A stretch of DNA of 64,000 bases from an uncultured Alphaproteobacteria bacterium (GTDB taxonomy: Bacteria; Pseudomonadota; Alphaproteobacteria; Rhodobacterales; Rhodobacteraceae): positions 1-64,000 of the forward strand of contig CAJWEI010000010.1 in the NCBI GenBank assembly GCA_913031285.1, read 5' to 3'. Under the pieces are notes generated by a model, which worked only from the letters and a program-made list of their open reading frames with translations, was not told where the DNA came from and ran no database searches. The position numbers were made by a program, and so were the translations under genes. Shown one piece after another: positions 1-2,034 of this stretch (position 1 is the stretch's first letter; each line of letters starts with the position of its first letter).

Positions 1-612
1 TCACTAATATATGCGACCATTCAAAGCCGCTAATCTTATTTTCTAAAAAAAATTATATATCAACATCCTGACGGATATCTAATAAGTCATGGTTCACATT
101 TCAGAAGTTGGCGAAACTCTTTCAGCAACAAAAGGTTTTCACTCAGCTATTTTTTCCCCAGCCCATTTTTTGTATTAAGAATAAAATTGATCAAATCTCT
201 GGTATACTCCAACCTTCAATCAGATCTAATTTACTAGCGAAGCAAAAAAATCGCTCATCTTCGCAGAAAATTACAACGCTGAATGTATTGAAATGGATTT
301 ACAATAAAACATTGTTTTTTAGGTTAAATATTTTGGTATGAAATAGTTTATAGAATGGCTCAAGGTCTGTTATTTACATGAACATCAATAATTTGGTGAC
401 AGATGCTAACCTATAATATAAAAATTATGAATAAATATACATTTTAAGTGCGATTAAAAACTTAAATCATATTGGGGGAATAAATCTAATCTTAGAAGGT
501 AGTGTAACAAATCATGCACTCCAAGCTTACTATTTTTATGTCAGGCTCAATAGTAGGAATTTTTAAGTAACGAAGAAGACAGTAAAGATAATTTAAGATA
601 AGGAAAAATAAT
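1..612. other. AT-rich gene-free stretch upstream of coiled-coil gene
   Basis: No reading frame here has a recognisable product, and neither strand gave family-like segments on translation. A TATAAT hexamer at 412-417 could be a -10 box for the gene starting at 613, but no good -35 lies at the usual spacing, so a promoter is only a guess. If real, it would give a leader of nearly 200 bases. The start of the window cuts off whatever lies further upstream. Confidence 0.5.
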
Positions 613-1326
613 ATGGCTACTAAAGAAGCAAACAAAGAAGCGATTGCAAAGAACCGGAAAACTATTTTCTCGATAGAATCTGAAGTTTTATCAAATAAGG
701 CTCTAGTCTATCAATCACGATCAATGATCGAGGAGAACCGGATGATGATTTTGAGTAACTATGCCGCGGCATTTATGGGCAACCGCCAATTGGCAAATGC
801 GAATACCGATGAAATTTTTTCGAACCGAGCCGCCATTCTGCAAAACATGAATACAGCGAATGAAGTAGAGCAGAACTATGTTGATGCTCAAACTAATAAG
901 TCTAATCTAGACTTCCTTAAACACCGCTCTGCTTTGAATTCTTCGGTACTTGAGATAAGTAAAAAAATGGCTGAGGTTAATGCACAGCTTGTAGCAATCA
1001 ATCGGGAAATAATGGATGCGAATAAATCCATTGTCGAGTTTAATAAAGGCGAGATAGCCGCTAATGCCGAGATGCTGAGCGGTTCTTTGTCCGCAGAGTC
1101 GGCAACTCCTCAAAGCAATGCAGACATAATTGCTAGCAACACTGCTTTAATGGCAGAGCTGACCGCAAATATCACTAACAACCGTGGCACCATATTGGCG
1201 GTATTGGAAACATCTGAAATGAACTCAGCGGCTCTTATGAAGAATAAGGATGAGATCAATGAGAGACGTATTTCAATTATGGAAAACCGCAAAGGTATTG
1301 CTGATAACAAAGCGAAAATTGGCTAG
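613..1326 (+). CDS. Asn-heptad coiled-coil protein, unknown function
   Basis: I do not recognise this 237-residue protein as a named family. Almost its whole length is a seven-residue repeat in which Asn recurs every seven residues and Ile, Leu, Met or Val sits four residues after each Asn (for example NKEAIAK, NRKTIFS, NRAAILQ, NREIMDA, NKSIVEF, NRKGIAD). In coiled-coil notation this is hydrophobic at a and Asn at d. The phase slips near residues 60 and 155-165. There is no signal peptide or membrane segment; I see no Cys or Trp and only one Pro. N-at-d layers are known from the trimeric stalks of trimeric autotransporter adhesins, but no membrane anchor is present here, so a soluble oligomeric rod is the simplest reading. 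An AAGGA ribosome site stands 8 bases before the ATG, and a strong hairpin follows the gene, so it is probably a single-gene transcript. Confidence 0.85.
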   Translation: MATKEANKEAIAKNRKTIFSIESEVLSNKALVYQSRSMIEENRMMILSNYAAAFMGNRQLANANTDEIFSNRAAILQNMNTANEVEQNYVDAQTNKSNLDFLKHRSALNSSVLEISKKMAEVNAQLVAINREIMDANKSIVEFNKGEIAANAEMLSGSLSAESATPQSNADIIASNTALMAELTANITNNRGTILAVLETSEMNSAALMKNKDEINERRISIMENRKGIADNKAKIG

Positions 1327-1392: not shown

Positions 1393-1424
1393 AGGCGGGC
1401 CACTCCAAAAAAGGGCCCGCCTTT
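1393..1424 (+). terminator. Rho-independent terminator of coiled-coil gene
   Basis: A perfect 9-bp stem (AGGCGGGCC at 1393-1401 with GGCCCGCCT at 1414-1422) encloses a 12-base loop and is followed by a short T run. It lies about 65 bases past the stop codon and is the clearest intrinsic terminator in the window. The GC-rich stem contrasts with its AT-rich surroundings. The T tract is weak, so efficiency is uncertain. Confidence 0.75.
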
Positions 1425-1957: not shown

Positions 1958-2034
1958 TGGTCGGGACGGCAAGATTCGAACTTGCGACCTACGGTACCCA
2001 AAACCGTCGCGCTACCAGGCTGCGCTACGCCCCG
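1958..2034 (-). tRNA. tRNA-Pro (anticodon UGG)
   Basis: Read on the minus strand, 77 bases fold as a standard tRNA. The acceptor stem pairs CGGGGCG with CGTCCCG (one G-U). The anticodon stem ACGGT/ACCGT encloses the loop TTTGGGT with TGG at positions 34-36. The T arm contains GTTCGAAT, and CCA is encoded at the 3' end. The UGG anticodon reads proline CCA, CCG and possibly CCU codons. Confidence 0.96.

Follow-up and report, generated by a model that had tools for sequence, protein, structure and literature searches.

An asparagine-ladder protein family of marine bacteria with a predicted single-chain three-helix fold

What does a stand-alone, soluble bacterial protein do with an asparagine recurring every seven residues along its length? 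The question is raised by an open reading frame in the window, by which we mean the whole 64,000-nucleotide stretch of DNA analysed here, from an uncultured member of the Rhodobacteraceae. The gene and its surroundings are as follows.

613–1326, plus strand: open reading frame of the Asn-ladder protein (ATG start, 237 aa); a congener has a homologue of 84% identity at the corresponding locus
600–605, plus strand: Shine-Dalgarno sequence AAGGAA, recognised in the sequence, its GGA 8 nt before the ATG
1393–1424, plus strand: GC-rich hairpin and then TTT, a likely terminator (sequence and RNA fold; region z −2.2)
1958–2034, minus strand: tRNA-Pro(TGG) beside the Asn-ladder gene; the congener G006 has the same tRNA and a sulfotransferase gene instead

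The window copy stands alone, with 613 bases separating the gene from the contig end and the tRNA-Pro adjoining it. A preliminary description of this DNA credited the gene with a strong ribosome site and a dedicated terminator. The ribosome site is present (AAGGA at 600–604), and similar G-rich sites lie upstream of homologues, for example AAGGGAGG in L011. The terminator is partly borne out: the hairpin at ~1393–1421 is plausible, with a GC stem of 8–9 bp and a 3′ run of merely TTT, but it is not among the listings of a consensus terminator scan. The same description took the product to be soluble, with no signal peptide, anchor or head domain, and here hydropathy, Pfam and an all-helical model agree. 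The window protein begins with MATKEANKEAIAKNRK, and its mean hydropathy over 19 residues never rises above 0.79; its homologues behave in the same way, the value never rising above 1.24 in any member of the family. Signal peptides and Sec export features were not found in the window protein or any homologue, and no C-terminal YadA-type anchor occurs among the Pfam matches of 28 members, the window protein ending in helix 3. The AlphaFold2 model is all-helical over residues 2–236 and contains no head domain. Because the homologues are soluble too, none carrying a signal peptide or anchor, the protein is not a truncated adhesin.

The ladder is conspicuous. The protein contains 31 Asn in 237 residues, 24 of them on a strict 7-residue ladder with hydrophobic residues at N−3 and N+4. 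Thirteen Asn pairs lie exactly 7 apart, against a mean of 3.8 and a maximum of 11 in 20,000 composition shuffles. In addition, 22 Asn have V, I, L, M or F at +4 (shuffle mean 8.4, maximum 18) and 18 have one at −3, a count reached by 3 of the 20,000 shuffles. The reported pattern of an Asn every seven residues with a hydrophobic residue four later is therefore real. When Asn is taken as heptad position d, the a positions are chiefly I, V, L, M, F and A, and Asn fills about three quarters of the d positions. Invariant columns in an alignment of 16 homologues are mostly ladder Asn (columns 42, 49, 57, 64, 71, 109, 123, 130, 137, 151, 176, 211 and 232). Two slips in phase had been counted, whereas our register analysis shows three, from N49 to N57 (+1), from N78 to N88 (+3) and from N151 to N169 (+4). 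The first sits in helix 1, within the best-conserved stretch of the protein:

757–783, plus strand: intrahelical stutter N49–N57, an 8-residue step, from ladder spacing and register analysis

The preliminary description read the coil as about 30 heptads running the full length. The N-at-d coil does cover the whole protein, but since the last two phase changes coincide with predicted turns, it consists of three pieces of about ten heptads each and not one of 30.

AlphaFold2, run with 16 homologues, models the window protein at pLDDT 94.6 and pTM 0.76 as helices over residues 2–77, 84–155 and 166–236, joined by short, well-scored turns.

616–843, plus strand: helix 1, residues 2–77 (AlphaFold2 and register); d positions N N I N S N N / N N N N
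844–861, plus strand: turn 1, residues 78–83 (AlphaFold2); homologues differ in length nearby
862–1077, plus strand: helix 2, residues 84–155, antiparallel (AlphaFold2, register, conserved flank switching from e to g); d positions N N L N S N N N N N
1078–1107, plus strand: turn 2, residues 156–165 (AlphaFold2); site of the insertions seen in L008/L039 and L109
1108–1320, plus strand: helix 3, residues 166–236 (AlphaFold2 and register); d positions N N L N V N N R N N

A second AlphaFold2 model, made from an alignment of nine divergent members alone (18–63% identical to their first sequence), reaches pLDDT 92.2 with the same three-helix layout. Of the two positions flanking the core, the better conserved one in helix 1 is e (2.70 bits vs 2.03 for g); in helix 2 it is g (2.54 bits vs 1.74 for e), and in helix 3 it is e again (1.97 bits vs 1.49 for g). 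Such an e/g/e switch is expected of an antiparallel middle helix and not of a parallel homotrimer, an argument made without atomic coordinates. Length differences among homologues cluster at both turns, as would also be expected with an antiparallel middle helix. The best Foldseek matches are single-chain three-helix coils, the designed bundle 4tql and the HR1 mimic 7zr2, all of them weak (E 0.06–0.47, TM about 0.33), and no solved structure superposes well. Drawn from the short turns, the pTM, these best matches and the e/g/e argument rather than from coordinates, a single-chain up-down-up three-helix bundle is a well-supported prediction for the window protein, with a rod length of ~11 nm (72 residues at 1.5 Å per residue).

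The rod had earlier been proposed to be trimeric. Instead, the confident model shows three consecutive helices with short turns, as does that of the divergent subfamily, and on this modelling 'trimeric' would hold solely in the sense that the coil is made up of three helices belonging to one chain. AlphaFold may favour an intramolecular bundle where a higher oligomer exists. The heptads themselves recall trimeric adhesins: the [IV]xxN repeats match those of N@d stalks, parallel homotrimers in which Asn at d coordinates chloride (PMC6839023, PMC4786415). A family profile of 28 members, searched against the PDB, weakly matches the stalks of UspA1, SadA and EibD, with E 6e-4 for the UspA1 N@d stalk 2qih; it also touches spectrin repeats, at E 0.002. 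In addition, one d pattern (NN-hydrophobic-N-x-NN) recurs in the three helices with the best scores in the same register, as if from one helix. A parallel homotrimeric rod binding anions in its core would, however, require ~34 heptads of unbroken helix per chain. The two well-predicted turns with their helix breaks, the same in divergent members, the e/g/e switch and the indels at the turns all speak against it, and we regard such a homotrimer as highly improbable.

Like the stalks of UspA1, SadA and EibD, the family has [IV]xxN heptads with Asn at core d. Those stalks are secreted, membrane-anchored, parallel homotrimers, whereas the family protein is soluble with three helices per chain. It is also far denser in Asn, with 24 in phase against eight N@d layers in UspA1 527–665 (PMC6839023). 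Among the features of trimeric autotransporter adhesins (type Vc), the protein has the N@d heptads and lacks the signal peptide, the anchor and the head. Spectrin repeats, 4tql and 7zr2 share the up-down-up arrangement of three helices predicted for the window protein, though the matches are weak. Spectrin is built of ~106-residue tandem repeats; the window protein, unlike it, is one stand-alone unit of 237 aa with helices of ~71–76 residues and a polar Asn core. The Spectrin model PF00435 does not match the window protein and matches one of 28 members at E 0.027, which is no significant sequence relationship.

The three helices resemble one another. The order N-N-hydrophobic-N-(S/S/V)-N-N is common to all of them, in the same direction, and total helix-helix profile scores peak at the common register for all three pairs. 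The score is 26.6 for H1–H2 (next best 9.4), 27.4 for H1–H3 (next best 23.2, a small margin) and 12.8 for H2–H3 (next best 5.1); per column, a two-heptad shift does equally well. This same-register likeness in the sequence hints that the helices may derive by triplication of one ten-heptad helix, and it is suggestive only.

How widely is such a protein distributed? A search for conserved N-at-d homologues, which the preliminary description had proposed for Rhodobacteraceae, yields a real family of 46 aligned sequences. They come from Rhodobacteraceae, Porticoccaceae/SAR92, SAR116-like bacteria (our reading of a group that bears just a family number within the same class) and further marine Alphaproteobacteria. 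After the congeneric homologue, the closest is WP_044039177.1, a hypothetical protein of Octadecabacter arcticus 238 that is 70% identical over its full length. The window copy groups with its congener and Octadecabacter (support 96/94). The Octadecabacter protein, from the same clade, differs in being encoded on plasmid pOA238_160 between IS6 transposase genes, and is uncharacterised. Homologues of 54–64% identity occur in SAR116-like, TMED93 and Pelagibacterales-labelled bins, those of 41–48% in Porticoccaceae/SAR92 and those of 30–44% in alphaproteobacteria with genomes of 1.4–1.9 Mb; divergent homologues of 20–27% were recovered by profile. SAR92-type genomes hold up to 4 copies each, some partial. 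Three further proteobacterial genomes gave weak profile matches (E 5e-5 to 8e-4, frames of 587–633 aa), which we took for generic coiled coil and did not count.

The view that the protein belongs to no named family holds: in Pfam and NCBIfam scans, no model covers the window protein or 28 members, the matches being weak coiled-coil noise (SMC, CENP-H, Fib_alpha). PHROGs gave at most similar noise for the window protein, and a single-sequence search of the PDB gave no match to it. We found nothing on an Asn-ladder family in literature on the sequence motif, marine metaproteomes, MORN with flagellum, or DUF1538 with PII. This accessory family, found in marine Alpha- and Gammaproteobacteria, appears not to have been described before.

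Conservation within the family shifts attention from the ladder to helix 1.

715–828, plus strand: best-conserved stretch, residues 35–72, SRSMIEENRMMILSNYAAAFMGNRQLANANTDEIFSNR, the proposed partner-binding face, from family alignments

The motif in this stretch is IEENRxMILSNYxAAFMGNRQLANxNT. Its core, F.GNRQLAN.NT, is kept in most members of 20–27% identity. The fraction of d positions occupied by Asn is 0.5–0.77 in the main group and 0.2–0.4 in these divergent members, in which about half of the Asn are replaced, often by hydrophobics. Because divergent members keep fold and motif despite this loss, the ladder is not obligatory; it is characteristic of the family, yet not required by the fold. 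The face on helix 1 looks more functional than the ladder, since the motif persists where the Asn fall away. The ladder would probably keep the core hydrated and hydrogen-bonded, fixing register and solubility in this way. Could the polar core itself be the functional site, as a store of anions or small ligands? The dominance of Asn, both at d positions and among invariant columns, would suit such a role. Chloride-binding N@d layers, however, need three parallel Asn per level, and an up-down-up bundle mixes a and d between neighbours. Half of the ladder is lost in divergent members, most of which keep the helix-1 motif. This loss argues that ion binding is not the core function, and we consider a ligand store very unlikely.

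The protein is probably a scaffold or spacer. Our preferred reading, held tentatively and at somewhat less than an even chance, is a cytoplasmic three-helix rod with an N@d core, acting as an adaptor or spacer that docks a partner through helix 1. In the predicted rod, hydrophobic a layers would alternate with mostly Asn d layers. We infer that such a rigid adaptor, with an architecture like that of a spectrin repeat, would dock its partner through the face around GNRQLANxNT. Gene neighbourhoods offer candidates. In all eight members of one supported gammaproteobacterial clade, a MORN-repeat gene lies 31–126 bp downstream on the same strand. These genes, with 6–7 repeats and directly downstream of the family gene in SAR92-type genomes, are at L015 4146–4847, L018 6182–6892, L051 4250–4951, L053 7799–8500 and L102 6698–7432, and in L107, L108 and L047. 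The two genes apparently form a conserved operon in SAR92-type genomes, and the MORN-repeat protein would probably be one partner of the rod in these bacteria. In four alphaproteobacteria (L039 8704–11258, L093, L094, L095), the gene order is DUF1538 permease, PII, a second PII-like ORF and the family gene. The PII matches Pfam P-II at E 4e-6, the gaps to the family gene are 3–24 bp, and the set is possibly a PII-regulated transporter operon. In lineages other than SAR92, the family may have been recruited to flagellar loci as well as to this operon. The solitary gene at the window locus has neither the MORN nor the DUF1538 link. In a SAR92-type genome, a gene for a 2,306-residue protein, which we take to be an M4-like metallopeptidase with calcium-type repeats from our own reading of its sequence, adjoins a third paralogue (L045 8782–15702).

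MORN repeats are often associated with membrane lipids. Their presence next door in SAR92, together with a similar size and similar helix lengths and with BAR, I-BAR and SNX domains recurring low in the Foldseek lists, raises the idea of a BAR-like membrane-binding three-helix protein. All these BAR-type matches, however, have E > 0.5 and TM 0.35 or below. Net charge is −2 in the window protein and ranges from −17 to +23 in the family, and no conserved basic face was identified. A BAR-like role is improbable, and the adaptor remains our preferred reading.

The family is patchy in every group, occurring in 2 of 7 congeners and in 12 of 61 and 14 of 112 genomes. In the congener G003, the family gene occupies the same place as the window copy, while G006 keeps the tRNA-Pro. 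Beyond this tRNA (window 1958–2034; L117 5737–6850), congeners differ in having the family gene or the sulfotransferase gene, suggesting an insertion hot spot at the tRNA-Pro. The Octadecabacter copy is flanked by two different IS6-family transposase genes. A simple composite transposon was rejected there, as the two genes share no repeat of ≥30 bases. Patchiness, the variable tRNA site and the IS6-family genes are what one would see if the gene were mobile-element cargo, such as a defence or niche-adaptation gene. PADLOC-DB, on the other side, gave no convincing match (best E for the window protein 0.031, over 54 residues), no family member was found in phage records or in viral contigs searched twice, and in SAR92 the chromosomal surroundings of the gene are conserved, a neighbouring gene included. 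Cargo of this kind seems hardly probable.

Flagella are a further candidate link. FliM and/or flagellin-type domains occur in 34 of 35 carrier genomes, including streamlined alphaproteobacteria of 1.4 Mb, a loose criterion since Flagellin_N also detects FlgL; the window genome was counted through flagellin, without FliM. Across two families, 22 of 26 carriers have FliM vs 84 of 147 non-carriers (Fisher one-sided p 0.006, pooled and ignoring phylogeny). The co-occurrence may reflect a cause or a shared lifestyle. Some members also lie in flagellar neighbourhoods. The gene order in L110 is FliM, FliN, FliO, family gene and flagellin; FliM/N/O lie upstream of the family gene in L048, a flagellin lies ~0.7 kb away in L036, and a flagellin remnant lies beside it in L105. 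Octadecabacter arcticus has flagellar clusters, but strain 238 is reported to be non-motile (PMC3646047). These observations would fit a flagellum or motility accessory protein, for example a filament-assembly helper, a structural part of the base or a regulator of flagellin. The members at flagellar loci are, however, the divergent ones (plus the one remnant), and none belongs to the window-type clade, whose members lie away from such loci. The gene is absent from most flagellated relatives, and no flagellar Pfam or NCBIfam family is listed for 28 members. A flagellar accessory role is possible, though unlikely. The broader proposal of a new family in marine bacteria, whose triplicated single-chain N@d coil would be a flagellum-linked scaffold in the cytoplasm, is slightly more doubtful. 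Within that proposal, and as doubtfully, the soluble antiparallel N@d ladder would be, to our knowledge, the first such intracellular bundle.

In exported adhesin stalks N@d layers are a known feature; the family presents a denser Asn ladder in what is predicted to be a soluble cytoplasmic three-helix bundle. It thereby tests the number of polar layers that the core of a natural coiled coil can accommodate. The gene family, which has no name, is also multi-copy and mobile-looking and belongs to bacteria abundant in the ocean (SAR92, SAR116-like and Rhodobacteraceae), and it comes with concrete candidate partners in the MORN protein, the DUF1538-PII operon and the flagellar loci.

Two observations concern the flagellins of carrier genomes. 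Flagellin_N domains lie in frames of ~1,600 residues, that is, giant flagellins, in several carriers, alphaproteobacterial bins included (G174:C3:759222-759635, G327:C40:53791-54201, G778:C82, G883:C15, G909:C4). In SAR92-type genomes, at least five flagellin genes stand in tandem (G772:C6:103662-117173, G879:C5:50901-60478), one of them with internal stop codons.
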